A stretch of DNA of 64,000 bases, taken from assembly GCF_019237615.1 (NCBI RefSeq), contig NZ_JAFAGT010000108.1:1-64000 (forward strand), in the 5' to 3' direction. Of the stretch, positions 20,664 through 33,680 are shown one piece after another. Position numbers and translations under genes: made by a program. Source of the DNA: Roseateles sp. GTDB taxonomy: Bacteria; Pseudomonadota; Gammaproteobacteria; Burkholderiales; Burkholderiaceae_C. Each line of letters begins with the position of its first letter. The first letter of the stretch is position 1. The notes beneath the pieces are model-generated. The model made no database searches, had not been told where the DNA came from, and saw only the letters and a program-made list of their open reading frames with translations.

Positions 20664-23600
20664 ATGGACATGAACCGGAGGCAGTTCTTCCGGGTGAGCG
20701 GTGCGGGGCTGGCAGCGTCCAGCCTGGTGGCCCTGGGGTTCTCGCCGACGGCGGCCCTGGCCGAGACGCGCAACTTCAAGCTCTCCCGGGCAACCGAGAC
20801 CCGCAACACCTGCCCCTATTGCTCGGTGGGCTGCGGCGTCATCATGTATTCCCTGGGCGACAAGGCGAAGAACGTCACTGCGTCCATCATCCACATCGAG
20901 GGCGACCCCGACCACCCGGTCAACCGCGGCACGCTGTGCCCCAAGGGCGCGGGCCTGCTGGACTTCGTGCACAGCCCCAACCGGCTGAAGTTCCCGGAGA
21001 TCCGCGAGGCAGGTGCCACGGAGTGGAAACGCGTCGGCTGGGACGAGGCGCTGGACCGGCTCGTCAAGCTGATGAAGGCCGACCGCGACACCAACTTTCA
21101 GACCACCAATGCCGCCGGGCAGACGGTCAACCGCTGGACCAGCACCGGCATCCTGGCCGCCTCGGCCTCGTCCAATGAAACGGGCTACATCACGCACAAG
21201 GTGATGCGCGCCCTGGGGATGCTCGTCTTCGACAACCAGGCACGTGTCTGACACGGCCCGACGGTGGCCAGTCTGGCCCCGACGTTCGGCCGCGGCGCGA
21301 TGACCAACCATTGGGTGGACATCAAGAACGCCGACCTCGTGCTCATCATGGGCGGCAATGCCGCCGAGGCCCATCCCTGCGGTTTCAAGTGGGTCATCGA
21401 GGCCAAGCACCACAACAAGGCCAAGCTCATCGTCGTGGACCCGCGCTTCACGCGCTCGGCCGCGATGAGCGACTACTACGCGCCCATACGTGCGGGCACG
21501 GACATCGCCTTCCTGGGCGGCGTCATCAACTATCTGCTGAGCAACAACAAGATCCAGACCGAGTACGTCCGCAACTACACCAACGCGACCTTCATCGTCG
21601 GCGAAGACTACAAGTTCGATGCCGGCATCTTCAGCGGCTACGACGAGGCCAAGCGCAGCTACAACCCTGCCTCCTGGGGCTATGAGCTGGACGACCAGGG
21701 CTTCGCCAAGGTCGACATGACGATGGCGCACCCGCGCTGCGTGCTCAACGTGATGAAGCAGCATTACGCGCGCTACACGCCCGAGCAAGTCAGCAGGATC
21801 ACCGGCACGCCCAAGGACAAGTTCCTCAAGGTCTGCGAGCACATCGCCAGCACCGCCACGCCCGACCGCACCATGACCATCATGTATGCGCTGGGCTGGA
21901 CGCAACACAGCATGGGCTCTCAGATGATCCGCACCGGCGCCCTCATGCAGCTGCTGCTGGGCAACATCGGCGTCCCCGGCGGTGGCATGAATGCGCTGCG
22001 CGGCCACAGCAACATCCAGGGCCTCACGGACCTGGGCCTGCTGTCCACGTCGCTGCCGGGCTACCTGAGCCTGCCCAGGGACGCGGAGCAAGACCTGGAG
22101 ACCTATTACAAGACCCGTGCGACCAAGCCGCTGCGTCCCGGCCAGATGAGCTACTGGCAGAACTATCCCAAGTTCTTCGTCAGCTACATGAAGTCGACGT
22201 TCGGCAAGGCGGCCACGGCGGAGAACGCCTGGGGTTACCACTGGCTGCCCAAGTGGGACACCGGCTACGACGTGCTGCGCGCGTTCGAGATGATGAACCA
22301 GGGCAAGCTCAACGGCTACATCTGCCAGGGCTTCAATCCGGTGGGCTCCTTCCCGAACAAGAAGAAGATCGTCGCCGGTCTGTCCAAGCTGAAGTTCCTC
22401 GCCATCATCGACCCGCTCAACACCGAGACGGCGGAGTTCTGGAAGAACTTCGGCGAGCACAACGACGTCAAGTCGGCCGAGATCCAGACCACGGTGTTCC
22501 GCTTCCCCAGCACCTGCTTCGCCGAAGAGGACGGCGCGCTGACCAACTCTGGCCGCTGGCTGCAGTGGCACTGGAAGGGCGCCGAGCCCCCGGGCGAGGC
22601 CAAGGGCGACCAGGCCATCATCGCCGAGCTGTTCACGCGACTGAAGGCGGCCTATGTGAAGGACGGCGGTGCTTTCCCCGACCCCATCCTGAACTTGACC
22701 TGGCCCTATCTGCAGCCGACCAACCCATCGCCAGAGGAGCTGGCCAAGGAGTACAACGGCAAGGCGTTGACCGACCTGACCGACCCCAAGGACCCGACCA
22801 AGGTGCTGGCCAAGGCCGGTGAGCAGCTCAGCGGCTTCGGGCTGCTTCGCGACGACGGCTCCACGGCCGCCGGCTGCTGGATCTACACCGGCGCCTGGAC
22901 GCAGGCCGGCAACCAGATGGCCCGGCGCGACAACAGCGATCCCTGGGGCATAGGCCAGACGCTGAATTGGGCCTGGGCCTGGCCGGCCAACCGGCGCGTG
23001 CTCTACAACGCGGCCTCCTGCGACCCCACCGGCAAGCCCTGGAACCCCAGGCGCCGGCTGATCAGTTGGGCCGGCGACAAATGGGCAGGCTCCGACGTGC
23101 CGGACATCCGGCCCGACGCCAACCCGACCGACGCCGACGCTGTGCGCCCCTTCATCATGACCGCCGAGGGCGTGGCGCGCCTGTTCGCGCCCAGCGGCAT
23201 GGCGGACGGCCCGCTGCCCGAGCACTATGAGCCCTTCGAGACGCCGCTGACGATCAACCCCATGCACCCGGAGAACGCCAAGGCCAAGTCCAACCCGGCC
23301 GCGCGCGTCTTCAAGGGCGACATGGAGGCCTTCGGCACGCCCAAGGACTTCCCGTACGTGGCGACGAGCTATCGCCTCACCGAGCATTTCCACTACTGGA
23401 CCAAGAACGTGCTGACCTCGGCGGTCATCCAGCCGCAGCAGTTCGTCGAGATCGGCGAGGAGCTGGCCAAGGAGAAGGGCGTGGCCAACGGCGACTGGGT
23501 CAAGGTGACGAGCAACCGCGGCTTCATCAAGGCCGTGGCAGTCGTCACCAAGCGCATCCCGTCGCTGGACGTGGATGGCAAGCGCGTGCATACGGTGGGC

Positions 23601-23735
23601 CTGCCCAACCACTGGGGCTTCGTCGGCGTGGCCAAGCCAGGCTATCTCGTCAACACGTTGACCCCCTTCGTGGGCGACGCGAACACGCAGACGCCGGAGT
23701 TCAAGAGCTTCACCGTCAACCTCGAAAAAGCCTGA
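20664..23735 (+). CDS. fdnG: Formate dehydrogenase-N alpha subunit, selenocysteine-containing (TGA at codon 196)
   Basis: Catalytic bis-MGD molybdenum/tungsten subunit, oxidising formate on the periplasmic side. One reading frame of 1023 residues is interrupted only by TGA at 21249-21251, codon 196, the same position as Sec196 of E. coli FdnG. The context (DNQARV[13 protein letters not shown]) matches the family, so TGA is read as selenocysteine, not stop. The twin-arginine signal is [16 protein letters not shown]. The N-terminal [4Fe-4S] site is [10 protein letters not shown] plus LCPKGAG. A SECIS-like hairpin follows the TGA, and selA, selB and selC lie downstream in the same cluster. Confidence 0.97.
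21249..21291 (+). promoter_or_regulatory. Bacterial SECIS element directing selenocysteine insertion
   Basis: Begins with the TGA itself. The codons right after it (cac ggc ccg) match the start of the E. coli fdhF/fdnG SECIS region. A hairpin can form from cgacggtggcc and ggccccgacg-like arms with apical loop agtct, retaining the G-U that SelB contacts in the bacterial element. Placement directly 3' of the TGA within the coding sequence is as expected for bacteria. The exact pairing was judged by eye. Confidence 0.75.
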
Positions 23736-24672: not shown

Positions 24673-25296
24673 ATGGCTACCCGCTTCATTCAGCGCTACA
24701 GCGCTGGCGAGCGCACCAACCACTGGTTGATCGTGCTGCTCTTCCTCGGCGCCGGGCTGTCGGGCCTGGCCTTCTTCCACCCGGGCTTCTATTTCCTGAC
24801 AGCCCTGTTCGGCGGCGGCACCTGGGCGCGCATCCTGCACCCCTTCATGGGCCTGCTGATGGCGCTGTGCTTCTTCGTCATGTTCCTCAAGCTGTGGCGA
24901 CACAACGTGATGAACGACGCCGACAAGGAATGGATGAAGCACAGCGGCGAGATGCTGCGCGGCGACAAGAGCCGCATGCCGCCCGCCGGCCGCTACAACG
25001 CCGGCCAGAAGCAGGTGTTCTGGGTCATGGCCACCAGCCTGGCCGTGCTGGTGCTGACCGGCTTCATCTTCTGGCAGCCCTGGTTCGCCGACAGCTTCCC
25101 CATCGTCGCGCGGCGCATCGCCGTCGTGCTGCATGCGCTGTCGGCAACCGTGCTGATCCTGACGGTCATCGTGCACGTCTACGCGGCGATCTGGGTCAAG
25201 GGCACGTTCAGGGCGATGACGCGCGGCACGGTGACCGAGGGCTGGGCGCGCCAGAATCACGCGCAATGGCATCGTGAAATGACCGGAAAGCAATGA
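24673..25296 (+). CDS. fdnI: Formate dehydrogenase-N gamma subunit (cytochrome b556)
   Basis: A 207-residue inner-membrane dihaem cytochrome b that passes formate electrons to the quinone pool. Four TM segments are visible (about 17-38, 55-75, 115-135, 150-172). The haem-ligand His candidates are RTNHWLIVLLF in TM1, LHPFMGLLMAL in TM2 and LHALSATV plus VIVHVYAAIW in the later helices. It starts 12 bp after fdxH and overlaps fdhE by 4 bp (ATGA). Confidence 0.96.
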   Translation: MATRFIQRYSAGERTNHWLIVLLFLGAGLSGLAFFHPGFYFLTALFGGGTWARILHPFMGLLMALCFFVMFLKLWRHNVMNDADKEWMKHSGEMLRGDKSRMPPAGRYNAGQKQVFWVMATSLAVLVLTGFIFWQPWFADSFPIVARRIAVVLHALSATVLILTVIVHVYAAIWVKGTFRAMTRGTVTEGWARQNHAQWHREMTGKQ

Positions 25297-26291
25297 CCGT
25301 CGGCAGCACGCAGAAGATTCTCAGCCCGGAAGAGATCGCCGTCCGCGCCGGCGAGCAGCTCAGCTTCCTGCACCTGCCCGAGGCCGGCGTCTTCGCCGAC
25401 CGCGCGCTGCGCCTGCGCGAGCTGGCCGTCGGTCATGCGATGCGCGACTTCCTGCTCTTCGTCGCCGAACTGGCCGAGGCCCAGCACCGCGCGCTGTCCT
25501 CCAGGGTCGCCGTGCCCCTGCCAACGCCCGAGCAGGTGGGCACCGCGGCGCGCGGCGGCCAGCCCTTGCTGCCGGCCGAGACCTGGCCGCGCGCACCGGT
25601 GTGGCGCGAGTCGCTGCGCACGCTGCTGAACGACCTGGCGCGCCACCTGCCTGACGGTCCGGCCAAGGCCGTGGTGTTGCAGCTGGCCGCCGCCGACGAC
25701 GAGCATCTGGAGGCGCAGGCCGGCCGCCTGCTGAGCGGTGTCATGCTGGGCCTGGACCTGGCCAGCGCGCCCTTGATCGCCGCCGGCCTGCAACTGCACT
25801 GGGTGCGGCTGGTGCAACAGACAGCGGCCCGGTCGGCCGGTCCCATCGCCGCCTTCGGCCGCACCGATGACCCCACGCTGTGCCCCTGCTGCGGCTCGCG
25901 CCCGGTCGCGTCGCTGGAGCGCCTGGGTGGCGAGGGCGCGCGCTACCTGGCCTGCGGCCTGTGCGCGACGCAATGGCACTACGTGCGTATCAAGTGCACG
26001 CATTGCCAGAGCACCAAGGGCATCTCGCTGCAAAGCCTGGTCGGCGCCGACGAACCGGCGTCGACGACGGCCGACGCCGTCGTGCAGGCCGAGTGCTGCG
26101 GCGAGTGCGGCCATTACCTGAAGCTGATGCACCCGGTGCGCGACAACGGCCTGGAACCGCTGGCCGACGACCTTGCCACGCTGACGCTGGACTTGCTCGT
26201 CAGCGAGGCTGGCCTGCAGCGCCACGGCGTCAACCTGCTGCTGCTCTTCGGCGAGCCCGACGAAGCGCCACCACCCGGACGAGAACACTGA
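25293..26291 (+). CDS. fdhE: Formate dehydrogenase accessory protein FdhE
   Basis: Cytosolic maturation factor required for active formate dehydrogenase-N/O. It has 332 residues. The diagnostic rubredoxin-like Cys pairs are LCPCCGSRP, LACGLCATQW, IKCTHCQS and ECCGECGHY, in the C-terminal half. The N-terminal half is all-alpha. Its ATG overlaps the fdnI stop and its TGA overlaps the selA ATG, so translation is coupled on both sides. Confidence 0.95.
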   Translation: MTVGSTQKILSPEEIAVRAGEQLSFLHLPEAGVFADRALRLRELAVGHAMRDFLLFVAELAEAQHRALSSRVAVPLPTPEQVGTAARGGQPLLPAETWPRAPVWRESLRTLLNDLARHLPDGPAKAVVLQLAAADDEHLEAQAGRLLSGVMLGLDLASAPLIAAGLQLHWVRLVQQTAARSAGPIAAFGRTDDPTLCPCCGSRPVASLERLGGEGARYLACGLCATQWHYVRIKCTHCQSTKGISLQSLVGADEPASTTADAVVQAECCGECGHYLKLMHPVRDNGLEPLADDLATLTLDLLVSEAGLQRHGVNLLLLFGEPDEAPPPGREH

Positions 26292-27727
26292 TGAGTGCGC
26301 CCGACGAATCCGTGGTTCACGGTTCCAAGGCCCCCGACAAAGCGGCCCCCAAGGACCTGCCGGCGCTGGACAAGCTGCTGCGCGACTGCGCGCCGCTGGT
26401 GGCACAGCACGGCCACACGCTGGTCGCCAACGAGGCGAGGGCGCTGCTCGACGGGCTGCGCTCGCGCGCCGTCGCCAGCACCCTGGTCCGCGCCGAGATC
26501 GATGCGCTGCCGCAGATGCTCGCCGGGCGCGTGGATGCGCGCATGCAGCCGAATCTGCGCGCGGTGCTCAACCTCACCGGCACCGTCATCCACACCAACC
26601 TCGGCCGTGCCCTGCTGGCCGACGCGGCGCTGCAGCAGGTGCTGGCGCTGATGGGCTCGCCCAACAACCTGGAGTTCGACCTCGATCGCGGAGCCCGCGG
26701 CGACCGCGATGACCTCATCGAGGGCCTGCTCTGCGAGCTGACCGGCGCCGAGGCCGCCACTGTCGTCAACAACAACGCCGCGGCGGTGCTGCTGGGCATC
26801 GCGGCGCTGGCGCGCGGCCGGGAGGCCATCGTGTCGCGCGGCGAACTGGTCGAGATCGGCGGCGCCTTCCGCATGCCCGACGTGATGAGCGCGGCCGGCG
26901 CGACGCTGGTGGAGGTGGGCACGACCAATCGCACTCACCCGCGCGACTACGAGCAGGCCATCACGCCGCGCACCGGACTCATCGTCAAGGTGCACACCAG
27001 CAACTACCAGGTGCAGGGCTTCACCGCGGCGGTGGACGAGGCCACGCTGGCGCCCATTGCGCATGCGGCCGGCCTGCCGCTGATGACTGACCTGGGTAGC
27101 GGCGCGCTGGTGGACCTGTCCCAATGGGGGCTGCCCGCCGAACCGCTGCCGCAGGCCATGCTGGCTGCGGGCTGCGACGTGGTGACCTTCAGCGGCGACA
27201 AGCTGCTGGGCGGCCCCCAGGCCGGCCTCATCGTCGGCAGCAAGGCCGCCGTCGGCAGGATCCGCAAGTACCCGATGAAGCGAGCCCTGCGCCTGTCCAA
27301 GCTGCCGTTCGCTGCGCTGGAGGCGACGCTGCGCCTTTACCTGCGCCCCGAACGGCTGGCGCAGGACCTGCCCACGCTGCGGCTGCTGACGCGACCCCAG
27401 AGCCAGATCGCCCAGCTCGCGCTGCACCTGCTGTCCGACGTGGCCGCGGCCGTCGCGCCGCGCTTCACCGTCGAGACGGTGGCGCTGCAGAGCCAGATCG
27501 GCTCCGGATCGCTGCCTGTCGAGCGCCTGCCGTCGGCGGGGCTGGCCATCTGCGCCGCCGACGGCCGTGGCCGCACGCTCGAAGCGCTGGCCAGCACGTT
27601 GCGCAGCCTGCCTCGTCCGGTCATCGGCCGCATCCACGATGACCGCCTGCTGCTGGACCTGAGGGGCCTGGAGGAGCCGGCGCTGCTGACTTCGCAGTTG
27701 CCGGTGCTGAAGGAGAGGCTGGCGTGA
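26291..27727 (+). CDS. selA: L-seryl-tRNA(Sec) selenium transferase
   Basis: PLP enzyme that converts Ser-tRNA(Sec) to Sec-tRNA(Sec) with selenophosphate, in the cytosol. Its 478 residues compare with 463 in E. coli. The N-terminal tRNA-binding part is followed by the fold-type I PLP domain: [32 protein letters not shown], and the PLP Lys at about K304 in [14 protein letters not shown]. The start is the ATG overlapping the fdhE stop. The stop overlaps the selB GTG start. A SelD gene is not in the window. Confidence 0.97.
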
Positions 27728-29589
27728 TCGTCGGCACTGCCGGCCATATCGACCATGGCAAGACCACGCTGGTGCGTGCGCTGACGGGCGTGGACACGGA
27801 CCGCCTGCCCGAGGAGAAGATGCGTGGCATCAGCATCGAGCTTGGCTATGCCTACCTCGATGTGCCGGGTCACGAGCAGCGGATCGGCTTCATCGATGTG
27901 CCCGGCCACGAGAAGCTCGTGCACACCATGCTGGCTGGCGCCAGCGGAATCGACTTCGCGTTGCTGCTTGTGGCGGCCGACGACGGCGTGATGCCGCAGA
28001 CTCGCGAGCACCTGGCCGTGCTGAGCCTGCTGGGCCTGAAGCGCGGCGCCGTGGCGATCACAAAGACCGACCGCGCTGAGCCCGGCCGCGTCGAGGTGCT
28101 GCGGGGCGAGGTGAGGGCGTTGCTGGCCGGCACCGGCCTGGACGACGCGCCCATCGTCGCTGTCTCCGCGCAGACCGGGCAGGGCGTGCACGCGCTTCGC
28201 GAGTTGCTGTTCGACGTCGCCCGCCGCACGCCGCCGCGCGCGACGCAGGGCCTGGCGGCCCGACTTGCGGTGGACCGCGCCTTCAGTCTGGACGGCGTCG
28301 GTACCGTCGTCACCGGCACGCTGCGTGCAGGTGAGATCACCGTCGGCGACGAACTGGTGGTCCACGGCCAGCGCGCCCGTGTGCGCAGCCTGCACGCGCA
28401 GAACCGCGCCGTCGAGCGCGCGCGGGCGGGCGAGCGCTGCGCCGTCGCGCTGGCGGGCCTGGCCAAGGAGCAGGCCCCGCGCGGCCAGTGGCTGACGGCG
28501 CCGACGGCAGCGCTCGCCACCGACCGCTTCGATGCCCGCCTCACGCTATGGCCCGGCGAGGCCAGGCCGTTGCGCTCCGGCACTCGCGTGCACCTGCACC
28601 TGGGCGCGCAGTCGGTGACGGCCAGCATCGCCGTGCTGGACGGCGACGCCATCGCGCCCGGCGCCTCGGCCCGCGTGCAACTTGTCTGCCACGCGCCGGT
28701 CGGTGCCTGGCGCGGCGACCGCCTCGTGCTGCGCGATGCCGGCGCCGCCCGCACCCTCGCCGGCGGCGTCGTGCTGGACCCGTTCGCGCCCGTGCGCTAC
28801 CGACGCACGCCCGCGCGCCTGGCCGAACTGGCCGCCTGCGAACTGCCCGTGTTGGCCGAGCGCCGCGAGCGGCTGCTGGCGCTGTCGTCGCTGGGTCTGG
28901 ACCTGGCCCGGTTCGCGCAGTCGGAGGGACTTGCCCTGCCGCTCGAAGGCTGGGCACTGGGCGACGAGGCCCGCGCCGCATTGACCGCCAGGCTGCTCGC
29001 CGCGCTGGCCGACTTTCACGCCAGGTCGCCCGACGAACTGGGGCCCGACGCGGCCCGGCTGCGCCGCCTCGTTGCACCGCGCATCGCCGAGCCGCTGTGG
29101 CGCCAGCTGCTGGCCGAGTTGCGTGCCACCGGCCGAATCGCCGTGCGCGGCGCCTTCGTGCACCTGCCGGAGCACGGCGTGCAGCTGTCGGCCGCCGAGC
29201 AGCGCATCGCGCAGAAGGTGGCGCCGCGCCTGGCCGCCGCCGGAGCCGAGGGCGCCTGGGCGCGTGACCTCGCCCGGGACTGCGCCGAGCCCGAGGCGCT
29301 GCTGCGTGCGACGCTGGCGCGCCTTGCGCAGCAGGGCGAGTTGCACCAGGTGGTGAAAGACCTCTACTGCGACACCGCGACGCTGGTCAGACTCGCTGCC
29401 ATCGTGCGGGCGTTGGGCGCCGAGCAGGGCAGGGTCACGGCGGCGACCTTCCGCGACGCGACGGGCCTGGGCCGCAAGCGGGCCATCCAGCTGCTGGAGC
29501 ATTTCGACCGCATCGGACTGCTGCGCCGCGTGGGCGACGAGCACCGGCTGCGCGCAGGCAGCGCACTGTTCTCGGAGACGACGAATTGA
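27724..29589 (+). CDS. selB: Selenocysteine-specific translation elongation factor
   Basis: GTPase that carries Sec-tRNA(Sec) to the ribosome at UGA codons marked by a SECIS. Of its 621 residues, the G domain has G1 GHIDHGKTT, the G3 region [13 protein letters not shown] and G4 ITKTDRA. EF-Tu-like domains 2-3 follow, then C-terminal winged-helix repeats (about 370-621) that bind the SECIS, ending in [21 protein letters not shown]. The start is GTG, overlapping the selA stop (GTGA). selC begins 4 bp after its stop. Confidence 0.97.
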
Positions 29590-29593
29590 TCAT

Positions 29594-29689
29594 GGAAAGA
29601 GAACGACACCGGTGTGTCGGCCGGGCTTCAAACCCGGTGGGTGGCGCCACGCGCCGCCGGGTGGGTTCGACTCCCTCCTCTTTCCGCCA
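29594..29689 (+). tRNA. selC: tRNA-Sec (anticodon UCA), CCA encoded
   Basis: A 96-nt tRNA with an 8-bp acceptor stem (ggaaagag pairing ctctttcc), discriminator G and encoded CCA at 29687-29689. The D arm is extended, the anticodon loop is cttcaaa with anticodon TCA at 29628-29630, the long variable arm is GC-rich, and the T loop contains ttcgact. These are the hallmarks of bacterial selenocysteine tRNA. Its position 4 bp after selB suggests cotranscription with selA-selB and processing from an mRNA precursor. Confidence 0.96.
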
Positions 29690-29752: not shown

Positions 29753-30196
29753 ATGACGGACACCGAGGTCATGACCCTGCCGTCGGGCTTCTGGCTCTGG
29801 CCCGAAGACCAGACCTGGGCCCAACCCCTTCCGGGCGGCCAGGTCCGGATCGGCATCACGGCGCTGGGCCTCAAGGCCTCGGGCGACATCTACATGTGCC
29901 GGCCCAAGCCGGTGGGCAGCAAGGTTGGGCAGGGGGGCTCCATCGGCGTCGTCGAGCTGTCCAAGTCCATCGTGGCGGTGAAGTCGCCACTGTCGGGCGT
30001 CGTCACGCGTGTGAACGAGGCGCTGGAGGAACGGCCCGAACTGGTCCACCAGTCGCCCTACGAGGCGGGCTGGATGGTCGAGCTGGCACCGTCTGAGCTC
30101 GATGCAGAGCGGCGGAAGCTCGCCATCGGCGAGATCGCCATCCGCGAGGCGATGGCGCACTGGGCCTGGCTCAACCAGCTGGACGCCGCGCCGTGA
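29753..30196 (+). CDS. Glycine cleavage H-like lipoyl protein
   Basis: A 147-residue protein resembling GcvH in its lipoyl fold. The segment GVVELSKSIVAVKSPLSG aligns with the H-protein lipoylation loop, putting the likely lipoyl-Lys at K71. PELVHQSPYEAGWMVEL matches the conserved H-protein C-terminus. No gcvT or gcvP is nearby, so a role in glycine cleavage is unlikely. I chose ATG 29753 (MTDTEVM); an earlier in-frame start would overlap selC. Its stop overlaps the GTG of the DsrE-like gene (GTGA). H-like lipoyl proteins paired with DsrE-like proteins are known from sulfur metabolism; that parallel is an inference. Confidence 0.8.
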   Translation: MTDTEVMTLPSGFWLWPEDQTWAQPLPGGQVRIGITALGLKASGDIYMCRPKPVGSKVGQGGSIGVVELSKSIVAVKSPLSGVVTRVNEALEERPELVHQSPYEAGWMVELAPSELDAERRKLAIGEIAIREAMAHWAWLNQLDAAP

Positions 30197-30573
30197 AGCG
30201 CTCCGGCCTCGCCATCCTGCTCTGGGCTGCCGACCCCGACGACCCCGTGCGCCTGGCCACTCCCTTCGCGCATGCCGCGGCGGCCGCGGCACTGGAGATG
30301 CAGGTGGAGGTCTATTTCTCGGCACGCTCGGTGCTGCTGCTCAAGCCCGGCGTGGCCGGCCAGCTGCGCGCCTCCGAGCGCTTCGACAAGACCATCGCCG
30401 ACTGGATGGACGACGCGCTGGCGCATGGCGCGCGCTTTTTCGTCTGCTCCGACGCGCTTGCAGCCCAGGGCCTCACGCAGGACGATCTGATCCCGGCAGG
30501 CCGCCGTCACGGCGGTGCGGTCCAATACGCATCCCGCGCCGCCCAGGCGGCGTGGACCACCTTGGTGTTCTAA
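30193..30573 (+). CDS. DsrE-family protein
   Basis: A 126-residue small cytosolic protein of the DsrE/DsrF-like (sulfur-carrier) fold: beta strands LAILLWAADP and VEVYFSARSVLLL, and the family's C-terminal loop ARFFVCSDALAAQGL with a single Cys at about residue 85, where related proteins carry a persulfide. Start is GTG, overlapping the stop of the H-like gene, so the two are translationally coupled. In this selenium cluster it could carry sulfur or selenium on Cys85; nothing in the sequence tells which. Confidence 0.75.
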   Translation: MKRSGLAILLWAADPDDPVRLATPFAHAAAAAALEMQVEVYFSARSVLLLKPGVAGQLRASERFDKTIADWMDDALAHGARFFVCSDALAAQGLTQDDLIPAGRRHGGAVQYASRAAQAAWTTLVF

Positions 30574-30593
30574 CCCCCTTCAGGAGAATTCAC

Positions 30594-31463
30594 ATGGCCC
30601 TCTCTCGTCTCGTCGCCGGTCTGGCGCGCGGTGTGGTGATGTCGCTGGCGCTGGCCGGCGCGGCGGCGCAGGCGCAGCAGGTGCTGCGCGTGACCGCCAT
30701 CCCCGACGAGTCACCCACGGAGCTGGCGCGCAAGTTCGCACCGCTGGGCCAGTACCTGGAGAGCAAGCTCGGCATGAAGGTGGAGTGGACGCCGGTGACC
30801 GACTATGCCGCGGCCGTCGAGACTGTCGTCAACAAGAAGATCGACCTGGCCTGGTTTGGCGGCTTCACCTTCGTGCAGGCCAATGTGCGTTCGGGCGGCA
30901 AGATCCTGCCGCTGGTGCAGCGCGAGGAGGACGAGAAGTTCCGCTCCGTCTTCATCACCGAGGCAAAGAGCGGCATTGCCAAGCTGGAGGACCTGAAGGG
31001 CAAGACGCTGTCCTTCGGCTCGCAGAGCAGCACCTCGGGCCACCTGATGCCGCGCAGCTTCCTGCTGGCCGCCAAGATCAACCCCGACGTGGACCTGAAG
31101 CGCGTGGCGTTCAGCGGTGCGCATGATGCGACCATCGCCGCCGTCGCCAGCGGCAAGGTGGATGCCGGTGCGCTGAACATCTCGGTCTGGGAGAAGTTCG
31201 TCGCCGAGAAGAAGGTGGACCCGGCGCAGGTCAAGGTCTTCTACACGACGCCGCCCTACTACGACTACAACTGGTCGGTCCATGCCGACATGCCGGAGGC
31301 CCTGCGCGAGAAGATCAAGGCCGCCTTCCTGGCGCTGGACCCGTCCACGCCGCAGGGCAAGGAGATCCTGGGCCTGCAGCGCGCCACGCGCTTCATTCCG
31401 AGCAAGCCCGAGAACTACAACGGCATCAAGGCCGCCGCCGAGAACGCCGGGCTGCTGAAGTGA
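30594..31463 (+). CDS. PhnD-type periplasmic substrate-binding protein (possible selenium oxyanion binder)
   Basis: A 289-residue exported solute-binding protein. The signal peptide ends near residue 28 (AGAAAQAQQ). The fold is that of the phosphate/phosphite/phosphonate PhnD group: AIPDESPTELARKFAPL, DLAWFGGFTFVQA, TLSFGSQSSTSGHLMP. Similar proteins annotated as putative selenate-binding proteins occur beside selenium genes; I recall this from annotation practice and cannot verify it here. Ribosome site AGGAG is 8 bp upstream of the ATG. No cognate ATPase or permease gene is in the window. Its stop overlaps the next gene's GTG. Confidence 0.8.
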   Translation: MALSRLVAGLARGVVMSLALAGAAAQAQQVLRVTAIPDESPTELARKFAPLGQYLESKLGMKVEWTPVTDYAAAVETVVNKKIDLAWFGGFTFVQANVRSGGKILPLVQREEDEKFRSVFITEAKSGIAKLEDLKGKTLSFGSQSSTSGHLMPRSFLLAAKINPDVDLKRVAFSGAHDATIAAVASGKVDAGALNISVWEKFVAEKKVDPAQVKVFYTTPPYYDYNWSVHADMPEALREKIKAAFLALDPSTPQGKEILGLQRATRFIPSKPENYNGIKAAAENAGLLK

Positions 31464-32041
31464 CCATCCCGCCCGCGCTCGACGCGCTGCTCGGCCGCTT
31501 TTCGGTGGGCCCCAAGCATCTGGTCGAGCCGGGCCCCAGCGACGAGCAGCTTGCGCTGATGACGCAGGCGGCGCTGCGCGCGCCGGACCATGCGGAGCTG
31601 GTGCCTTATCGATTCAAACTGGTGCGTGGCACAGCAAGACAAGGCATGGCCGTGCTGTTTGCCGACGCGGCCCGCAGGGCCGGCAAGGGCGAGGAGGGCG
31701 CCGCGCTGGATGCCGAGCGCGCGCTGAACCCGCCGGTGACGGTGGCGGTCGTCGCCCGCATCGACCTTGGCCATCCGCAGGTGCCGGCCCATGAGCAATG
31801 GGCGGCCGTGGGCGGCGCGATCAGCAACTTCCTGACGGCGGCCCATGCGCTGGGCTTGGGCGGCAAGATGCTCAGCGGCGTCAAGGTGCGCGATCCGGCC
31901 ATCTCGGCGGCCTTCTGCGAGCCCGGCGAGACGCTGGTGGGCTGGATCGCGCTGGGAACGCCCGCGCGCCGCCCGGCCGGGCCGGCGCGCAAGCCGGCGC
32001 CGGCCGAGGTGCTGGTGGATTGGGTCAGACCAGACCGGTGA
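31460..32041 (+). CDS. YdjA-like nitroreductase-family protein
   Basis: A 193-residue FMN-dependent nitroreductase-family protein of the short YdjA type. ALRAPDHAELVPYRFKLV is the flavin-binding N-terminal region and EQWAAVGGAISNFLTAAHALGLG the central helix. Start is GTG, overlapping the upstream stop (GTGA). In E. coli, ydjA lies next to selD, so its presence at the end of a selenium cluster fits a recurrent association. The substrate is unknown. It converges with the haem peroxidase, overlapping its likely 3' end by 17 bp. Confidence 0.85.
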   Translation: MTIPPALDALLGRFSVGPKHLVEPGPSDEQLALMTQAALRAPDHAELVPYRFKLVRGTARQGMAVLFADAARRAGKGEEGAALDAERALNPPVTVAVVARIDLGHPQVPAHEQWAAVGGAISNFLTAAHALGLGGKMLSGVKVRDPAISAAFCEPGETLVGWIALGTPARRPAGPARKPAPAEVLVDWVRPDR

Positions 32042-33522
32042 ACTTCAGGATCGCCCAAAACATTGCCGATCATCGGCGTCCAGCCCGAAGGCGCAGCCCT
32101 GCGGAAGCTGCGCTGGTCGCTGTCGACGATGCCGTTGAAGACTTCCATCAGGATGCGGCCGCCGACGGGGCCGAGCTGCGAGACCGAGCAGGGGCCGGTG
32201 GCGAAGTCGTCGTCGTTGAGGTCGCGCTGGCCCACCTCACGCCAGTAGGCCAGCGTCGGCTGCTGGGCTTCGGCCAGGATGTAGAACCACAACGGGGTCT
32301 CGGTCAGGAAGCGCGGGTCGGCGCTGGCGATGCTCCTGAAGCTGAAGCCGTTCGGGGTCTTGACGCGCACCATCAGGTCGCCGGCGCCCAGAGGCTTCTC
32401 GTGCAGCTTGGCGGCGAAGTCCTGGCCGGTGGCGATGGCGTAGGTGGGCAGGTTGCCGCGCTTGAGGTTGAGAACGGCCAGCGAGGCGCCCGCGCCGACC
32501 GAGGGCGGCAGCTTGGCCAGCGGGTCCACCAGCGAGGGGTCGATCTTGTAGGCCCATTGCAGGCGCACCGCGGGGTCGTTCTTGACTGGCGTGGGACCGT
32601 TCCTGACGGGAATGCCGAAGCCCGGCGTGAAGAAGCGGCCCCAGTCGTCGATGACATGGGCGGCCAGCAGGGGCTGGAAGCCGATCAGGCTTTCGTCGGG
32701 CGAGTCGGTTGCGTCGAAGATCAGCTTCTTGGTCTCGGTGTTGAGCCGATAGCCGCGGCGCACCATGGAATGGCCGAAACGGTAGGCCGCGCCGACAAAT
32801 TCCGTGGGCAGGTTGTCGCGCATCTGCTTGTTGTTCACGTACAGGTCGTAGGCACCGTCGCCCAGGGCCGCATGGCGCTGGGTGAAGAAGTCATAGGTGT
32901 GCGTGTCGATGATGCGGTGCAGATAGTCCTCCAGCACGACGCGCTGGTAGGTCCACGTGACCTCGGCGCGGGCGCGCTCGAACAGGTTGGCCGTGTTGCT
33001 GCCGGCCTTGATCCTGGTCACGACGGCGTTGTGGAACTTGATCATCGCCAGCTGGACCTGGCAGACGATGGAGTTCTCGTCGTTGCGCTTGTCGCCGATG
33101 ATGGCGCGGCCGTTGGCGGCTTGGCGCATCAAGTCCTTGCCGCCGGGGGCGATCAGCAGCGTGGCGCCATCGGCGTCGTACATATAGGGCTGGTCCTGCG
33201 GGCCGGCGCCGTAGATGCAGTCCAGGTCCAGCGCCGGCGTGCGCAGGTTGGACGCGGCCGCCGCTGGGTCGGAGAACGAGGAGGTGGTGTCCAGCGTCAG
33301 GTCATGGTCGACGAACTGGCCGAAATAGGTGTATCCGGCCGGCACGGCGAGGTTCTCCTCCGCGTCAGCGCCGTCGTTGAGTTCATCGTCCTCCACGATC
33401 ATCAGCGCGGCCAGCGCCTCCAGGCTGGCGTCGCTGAAGGGCTTGGGGTTCTCGGGCAGCATGCGGACGAACTTGCGTTCGCGCGTGCCGAGCAGGCCAT
33501 GGCCGTTGTTGGGTGTGGTCAT
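32025..33522 (-). CDS. Animal-type haem peroxidase, with apparent frameshift near the 3' end
   Basis: A member of the bacterial branch of the myeloperoxidase-like superfamily. YTYFGQFVDHDLTLD carries the distal His region and FGHSMVRRGYRLN the proximal His region. The start MTTPNNG has AGGAGA upstream; there is no signal peptide. About 485 residues are in one frame up to GWTPMIG (around 32065-32085). That frame then runs on antisense through the nitroreductase to 31606, giving low-complexity sequence. A one-base shift instead gives FWAILKFTGLV and a stop at 32025, which looks like a native C-terminus. So either a frameshift mutation or a sequence error is likely. Confidence 0.8.
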
Positions 33523-33680
33523 CGCGGTCTCCTGAATGAACGAGAGGGGACGGCATCGTGAACCTGCGCCCTGCGCGGTGAATCCCCAGCCTTGCGGAGA
33601 AACCCTCGCCGGCACGCTTCAAGCTAGGGGTTAGCAGGCACCGGACACCCGGATGCGGGCATCGCCGAGGACCTGGTTTC

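Follow-up and report, generated by a model that had tools for sequence, protein, structure and literature searches.

A GcvH-like lipoyl protein and a DsrE-like protein with a single cysteine, encoded side by side next to selB and tRNA-Sec, form the core of a gene set in Roseateles sp. The set is located in contig NZ_JAFAGT010000108.1 (assembly GCF_019237615.1), of which positions 1 to 64,000 of the forward strand were analysed; these 64,000 nucleotides are called the window. The gene order in the window is the operon of the selenocysteine (Sec)-containing formate dehydrogenase (fdhG), fdhE, selA, selB and tRNA-Sec, then four genes: the GcvH-like/DsrE pair, a periplasmic binding protein of family TIGR04553 (the binder) and a YdjA-like nitroreductase. 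The set probably serves selenium or the formation of the Sec enzyme in some way. We lean, in outline, towards a selenium-supply module wired into the Sec-formate dehydrogenase operon.

Recurrence of the pair beside selenocysteine genes

The order sample consisted of 200 genomes, with selB over cut-off in 54, selD in 143 and TIGR04553 in 45; the selB-bearing genomes gave 56 selB loci (55 fetched and the window). The pair is present behind selB and tRNA-Sec in 10 of the 54, in 7 families. In genome G169 it follows Sec-formate dehydrogenase and fdhE, not selB. The first-pass annotation had regarded common occurrence without selenium genes as telling against its proposal; the sel-type pair was found in 11 of the 200 genomes, every one with selB, and in 0 of the 146 selB-less genomes, under incomplete flank coverage (P0002, the DsrE-like protein of the window, matched in 52 of the 200, and 30 match loci were fetched with flanks). 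LbpA/DsrE pairs of the sHdr type were excluded from these counts; such pairs, without selB, are present in G010 and, by position and sequence, in G028, G034 and G078. A weak match to DsrE only (L047, 19.8 bits) was left uncounted among the selB loci.

When 84,980 species genomes were scanned with the DsrE alignment, 133 relatives were obtained, of which the best 80 loci were used; their rates are descriptive, because the loci were picked by similarity of the DsrE protein. Presence was counted from stop-to-stop open reading frames (ORFs) and profiles, since the gene caller picks antisense ORFs in GC-rich loci. The GcvH-like gene is present in 78 of the 80 loci, in 74 on the same strand within 1.5 kb. 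Fetched DNA contains selA, selB or tRNA-Sec in 68, and these or formate dehydrogenase genes in 76. Among the remaining 4, L165 spans 3.7 kb, and L185, L192 and L205 end at most 3 kb from the pair on one side. Pair and selB are on the same strand in 59 loci and on opposite strands in 7; no selB match was obtained in 14. The binder (9 of 80) and the nitroreductase (22 of 80) are optional. The four genes, previously described as one unit, are thus not conserved as a set, and a conserved four-gene unit was rejected.

Named carriers include Hydrogenophaga, Pelomonas, Rubrivivax, Variovorax, Comamonas and Rhodocyclus. The 80 loci are titled Betaproteobacteria or unspecifically, with one short contig (L165) titled Actinomycetota. 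A class-wide search with the DsrE alignment gave matches in 90 of 321 genomes; none of the 20 top loci fetched contains selB, tRNA-Sec or a sel-type pair. One of the 20 carries an hdr cluster with a GcvH-like protein; the others, 19 in number, have just the DsrE gene, in one case together with a SenA-like ORF. As sampled, the sel-type pair seems restricted to Burkholderiales (in the wide sense of GTDB). Its recurrence beside selB and tRNA-Sec across many genera exceeds chance. The link to selenium drawn in the first-pass annotation is borne out by this neighbourhood; the reduction and carriage of selenium suggested with it are putative.

Selenium supply or formate dehydrogenase

A possible, if rather unlikely, alternative is that the pair matures formate dehydrogenase through a lipoyl/DsrE-persulfide sulfur relay for the Mo/W cofactor or FdhE, its nearness to selB being incidental. 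Consistent with this, the pair follows formate dehydrogenase and fdhE in L195, L198, L201-L204 and L225, and fdhE alone in L213 and L218, and the fetched DNA of these loci contains neither selA nor selB; FdhE is encoded in 62 of the 80 loci, and TupA/TupB genes or a ModA-type binder adjoin the pair in several. Against it, in one genome (L217/L080) the pair lies with selA-selB and formate dehydrogenase about 24 kb off; in L194 it lies with selD-selA-selB, and the formate dehydrogenase that this genome has is not within the 20 kb fetched; and no pair was seen beside the cysteine-containing enzyme in the loci and genomes surveyed.

The active-site codon of fdhG was surveyed in 89 loci. Matches of at least 50% identity were obtained in 55, with the codon covered in 40 and TGA in 40 of these 40; matches below 50% were dropped, among them a 23%-identity match to another enzyme (L211) that showed Cys. 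TGA is kept even in L195, L198 and L201-L204, without selA or selB nearby. The Sec enzyme is present in all five genomes examined as possible exceptions; in G030 it is represented by a fragment that scores under the cut-off. Six genomes have solely non-Sec formate dehydrogenase-N (G019, G027, G053, G058, G149, G186); P0002, searched in all 200 genomes, has no match in them.

The following observations weigh against a selenium-supply module. All 11 pair genomes carry Sec-formate dehydrogenase (G030 by its fragment), so that 'for selenium' and 'for this enzyme' are inseparable by co-occurrence. That none of the six non-Sec genomes has the pair (0 of 6, compared with 11 of 42) falls short of significance, the numbers being too small (p 0.31). 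Pair and binder are not associated (6 of 11 pair genomes, 16 of 43 pairless selB genomes, p 0.32). The pair was unseen in 43 of the 54 selB-bearing genomes (3 of the 56 selB loci end within 1.5 kb behind selB), and is therefore not required for Sec synthesis in general. Its orientation opposite to selB in 7 of 80 loci indicates that operon membership is not constant. TIGR04553 over cut-off occurs without a selB match over its own cut-off in 23 of its 45 genomes, and without such a selD match in 5. The DsrE cysteine, C85, is equally kept in 31 of 31 housekeeping and 5 of 5 sHdr-side DsrE rows, and therefore marks the function of the fold, not selenium. The nitroreductase is below the YdjA equivalog cut-off. 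Finally, some loci carry, in the position after the pair, a ModA-type binder or tungstate genes, which fits a metal-cofactor role.

Genes of this kind, in place of the selenium-type transporter, were recorded after the pair in L050 (ModA-type binder, SBP_bac_11) and in L195, L201-L205, L218 and L225 (tungstate TupA/TupB-type, putatively so in L225). It is as though this position were kept for the uptake of oxyanions that formate dehydrogenase needs.

Binder and split transporter

The binder scores 401 bits in TIGR04553 (ABC_peri_selen, NCBIfam; cut-off 250) and 253 bits in PF12974 (Phosphonate-bd), and is the sole TIGR04553 match in its genome. A Ser-Thr-Ser (STS) motif at residues 146-148 is conserved at more than 97% in 54 TIGR04553-type rows. 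The second-best match in PDB is 5lq5, the phosphite binder PhnD1 of Prochlorococcus, in which, according to PMC8786288, a like STS motif sits in the binding cleft. Motif and likeness suit a small oxyanion as the putative ligand. Selenite is favoured, by shape, because the solved relatives bind phosphite, which is similar.

Within the order sample TIGR04553 is enriched with selB (22 of 54 selB-bearing and 23 of 146 selB-less genomes, Fisher p 0.0003), and likewise with selD (40 of 143 and 5 of 57, p 0.002); these p values are optimistic, because the sampled genomes are related. Elsewhere in the sample the binder mostly heads a complete ATP-binding cassette (ABC) operon. From 45 binder loci fetched, 44 show the binder (window not counted): permeases are present in 41, selD in 10, senA or senB in 6 and formate dehydrogenase genes in 2, several contigs being short. 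The sen loci holding a binder are L099, L105, L106, L111, L119 and L135, the last being the selD-senB-senA locus of G049, a genome of the same family as that of the window.

The first-pass annotation had reported no permease or ATPase. This is correct for the operon and incorrect for the genome (G000), in which the best permease matches are located on contig C18 (58193-59783; 64% and 40% identical to an L145 permease), following an ATPase and next to selD, senB and senA. One of the permeases scores as PhnE (257, cut-off 216.7); the ATPase is PhnC-like (173, below the cut-off of 266). SenB scores 422 (cut-off 300) and SenA 464 (cut-off 420). The 19 kb fetched around this locus yielded no binder. 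The genomes of L143 and L144 share the split: ATPase and permeases lie by selD, the single TIGR04553 match lies in the sel operon, and in none of the three genomes was a binder found beside the permeases. In the genome of L143 one permease is broken across two contigs.

The full set of substrate-binding protein (SBP), ATPase and two permeases is present within the sel locus in 7 of the 80 loci. In L145 and L173 the order is selB, tRNA-Sec, GcvH-like, DsrE, SBP, ATPase, permease, permease, nitroreductase; in L146, L147, L150, L151 and L152 the transporter precedes selB, and selA precedes the transporter except in L151. From the L145 order and the C18 copy, the operon of the window looks like one of the L145 type from which ATPase and permeases were lost, compensated at selD. 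The two transporter halves would then work together.

It is improbable that the binder is a leftover, either decaying after the loss of ATPase and permeases or acting as a mere oxyanion sensor. The operon indeed lacks the ATPase and permeases that L145 has; on the other side, the binder is intact, is the only TIGR04553 copy, and shares 96-97% identity with the copies of L144 and L143, and no binder was found at the permease loci of the three split genomes. This complementary loss argues that the binder is in use.

In L123 and L141 (genomes G184 and G064, family f18), a complete TIGR04553 ABC operon adjoins the Sec-formate dehydrogenase operon, and both genomes carry the pair. The gene beside this ABC operon is presumably moeA-like.

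GcvH-like and DsrE-like proteins

The residues singled out in the first-pass annotation, K71 and C85, are conserved. All 88 sel-type sequences compared, that of the window included, have K71 and E68 of the GcvH-like protein (repeat loci, including that of G169, omitted). K71 is located in the turn of a hairpin between strands 63-69 and 73-77 in a predicted model with a predicted local distance difference test (pLDDT) score of 90.5, and is the probable site of lipoylation, judged from sequence; a lysine at this hairpin position is a trait shared with canonical GcvH. The protein is below the NCBIfam gcvH cut-offs (TIGR00527, 67.5 against 115.85 bits; NF002270, 82.8 against 117). In the tree, 15 canonical GcvH rows form a clade (support 100/99) and LbpA forms its own (99/97), with the 32 sel rows outside both, as a grade between them with long branches; placing them closer to LbpA or to canonical GcvH failed for this reason. 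A separate canonical GcvH adjoins GcvP on another contig of the same genome; a role in glycine cleavage was rejected on this ground and because the window protein falls outside the canonical clade. The protein is assigned neither to canonical GcvH nor to LbpA, judging by its score, tree position, cysteines and gene neighbours.

P0002 consists of 126 amino acids, with the DsrE domain alone, one cysteine and no NCBIfam match. C85 is present in 90 of 91 sel-type rows, the remaining row being gapped, and follows strand 81-84 (predicted model, pLDDT 97.4). The best fold match in PDB is 3mc3, a DsrE/DsrF-like protein, with 2qs7 and 3pnx also matched. Pfam score, fold and the position of the cysteine after a strand place the protein among DsrE/DsrF-like proteins. 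In a tree made by a quick method from few columns, 31 sel-type DsrE rows lie on one side of a branch (Shimodaira-Hasegawa approximate likelihood ratio test, 97).

That the pair is a borrowed variant of the carrier set of sHdr sulfur oxidation (LbpA and DsrE) is highly improbable: the two folds are the same, G010 has an HdrB-type and lipoyl-ligase domain cluster beside LbpA-like and DsrE genes, and the sel GcvH model scores LbpA2-like proteins at 127-136 and canonical GcvH at 56-95, but the cysteines of LbpA are mostly absent from sel-type rows (N-terminal in 10 of 88, C-terminal in 1 of 88), the LbpA clade is without the sel rows, and HdrA-like, HdrB, HdrC and LplA queries from G010 gave 0 matches in the window, the 80 loci, the nine selB loci and L225. 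The same Hdr and LplA queries do match in L226, and L300 is matched by the Hdr ones. Membership of LbpA was rejected on the tree, the missing cysteines and the lack of hdr or ligase neighbours.

Proposed mechanism and significance

A selenium-supply module could operate as follows. The TIGR04553 protein would catch a selenium oxyanion, by preference selenite, in the periplasm and pass it to the PhnC/PhnE-type ATPase and two permeases, encoded at the selD-senB-senA locus or, in some relatives, in the sel operon. Once in the cytoplasm, selenium would be reduced or bound by the dihydrolipoyl dithiol on the GcvH-like protein, with electrons putatively from the YdjA-like flavoprotein or from another reductase. 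Selenium would then move to Cys85 of the DsrE protein and on towards SelD (selenophosphate) and SelA, and free selenide would be kept low. Substrate, lipoylation, direction of transfer, the part of the nitroreductase and the joint working of the two transporter halves are proposals; the gene neighbourhood, the conserved Lys and Cys, the family of the binder and the split of the transporter genes were observed. The lipoyl step as drawn is doubtful. Equally tentative is the wider proposal of lipoic acid as a selenium redox carrier, with a PhnD/PhnCE-type import shared by selenocysteine and selenoneine synthesis, reduction on lipoyl, and delivery from the DsrE cysteine to SelD.

According to PMC8538045, thioredoxin of Pseudomonas stutzeri reduces selenite via a protein-SeO intermediate and matters for formate dehydrogenase activity; the use of a protein dithiol to reduce selenite for selenoprotein synthesis thus has a precedent. 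PMC6067878 describes LbpA proteins as likely carriers that offer lipoate-bound sulfur to enzymes.

To our knowledge, lipoic acid has so far been encountered in carbon and sulfur metabolism. If the proposal is true, the lipoyl/DsrE pair would be an unrecognised carrier set for selenium (or for a Sec enzyme), and lipoate would gain a role in the metabolism of a further element. According to PMC9312934 (2022), PMC11097638 (2024) and PMC13188914 (2026), a specific or high-affinity transporter for selenium has yet to be identified; the TIGR04553 system, if confirmed, would be the first specific high-affinity selenium importer. It is a candidate importer family tied by gene order to selB, tRNA-Sec, selD and selenoneine genes. 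Some carriers are cultured, among them Hydrogenophaga palleronii NBRC 102513 (L152) and Pelomonas sp. Root1217 (L145), and the natural split of the transporter subunits allows a clean genetic test.

Locus layout

The four ORFs of 29753-32041 (window plus strand) were all recovered at the coordinates first assigned to them (Table 1), as were the two GTGA overlaps (30193 and 31460) and the gap of 20 bp that separates the second gene from the third. All four proteins pass Pfam cut-offs.

Table 1. Coordinates and profile matches of selenocysteine, formate dehydrogenase and downstream genes in the window
Feature	Coordinates	Strand	Support
fdhG, formate dehydrogenase-N alpha subunit	20664..23735	+	TIGR01553 1480 bits; 1 TGA inside, the Sec codon at 21249-21251
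fdhE, formate dehydrogenase accessory protein	25293..26291	+	Pfam FdhE_N 119.8, FdhE_C 102.9, FdhE_central 61.8 bits
selA, selenocysteine synthase	26291..27727	+	PF03841 (SelA) 514 bits
selB, Sec-specific elongation factor	27724..29589	+	TIGR00475 449 bits, cut-off 242
tRNA-Sec (selC), anticodon TCA	29594..29689	+	ARAGORN
GcvH-like lipoyl-domain protein, putative lipoyl Lys K71, Glu68	29753..30196	+	PF01597 (GCV_H) 87 bits
DsrE-like protein (P0002), single conserved Cys85	30193..30573	+	PF02635 (DsrE) 34.6 bits, cut-off 22.7
Periplasmic binding protein, putative selenate ABC transporter SBP	30594..31463	+	TIGR04553 401 bits
YdjA-like nitroreductase	31460..32041	+	PF00881 (Nitroreductase) 57 bits

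A minus-strand ORF of the animal-haem-peroxidase type (window 31606-33615; PF03098, 70 bits) runs antisense through the nitroreductase gene for about 435 nt. This stretch may reflect a lost stop or a frame open by composition.

Other genes occur at selB in relatives. In eight other Burkholderiales genomes (L063, L064, L068, L070, L074, L076, L083, L084, L086), selB is followed by a protein of the pyridine-nucleotide-disulphide-oxidoreductase type (cluster c14; Pfam run on the L074 copy), with no pair. The selD of these eight has an in-frame TGA, and their SelD may itself be a selenoprotein. A chalcogen-type redox gene is located between selA and selB in L147, L150, L154, L161, L169, L176 and L180; in family scans of the L154 copy it resembles type III sulfide-quinone reductase or flavocytochrome c sulfide dehydrogenase. 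In L148, L183, L216 and L221 the same position is taken by ResA/TlpA-like thioredoxin proteins (c37), to which three of the four add a transglutaminase-like protein (c38) (family scans, one copy each).

Comparison with known systems

The window shares with TIGR04553 selenate SBP systems the score of the binder and the presence of an ATPase and PhnE-type permeases in the same genome; it differs in that the binder is in the sel operon, apart from them. No substrate test of the family was found in open-licence literature, and a loose search of open-licence papers gave no literature match containing its product-name phrase. The senABC selenoneine locus houses, in this genome, the ATPase and permeases that match the binder, but is a different locus with a different product; the sen loci of other genomes include the binder.

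Likeness to the lipoate-binding-protein sulfur systems, noted in the first-pass annotation, was confirmed: as in the sHdr system described in PMC6067878, a GcvH-like lipoyl protein with conserved lipoyl Lys stands beside a DsrE protein. It differs from that system in its lack of hdr and ligase neighbours, in the near absence of the two conserved LbpA cysteines, N- and C-terminal (PMC6067878), and in its link to selenocysteine genes. The YedF/YedE selenium candidates (PMC5322559) are likewise a case of a DsrE-type protein tied to selenium by neighbourhood; YedF, as described there, has an N-terminal SirA/TusA domain and a CGXC motif, which the single-domain, single-cysteine P0002 does not. YedE, YedF, a DUF3343 protein and LysR_Se are the candidate selenium genes named in a 2022 review (PMC9312934).

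The nitroreductase is of the same fold family as E. coli YdjA, whose gene is directly upstream of selD in K-12, and its nearest entries are YdjA-type; it differs in scoring below the equivalog cut-off (NF008088, 88.4 bits against 183) and in its location with selB and tRNA-Sec.

Full-text searches of open-licence papers found none that describes the gene set in its title or abstract. NCBI already names the binder a putative selenate binder. The parts are of known kinds; their combination and the link to selenocysteine appear new.

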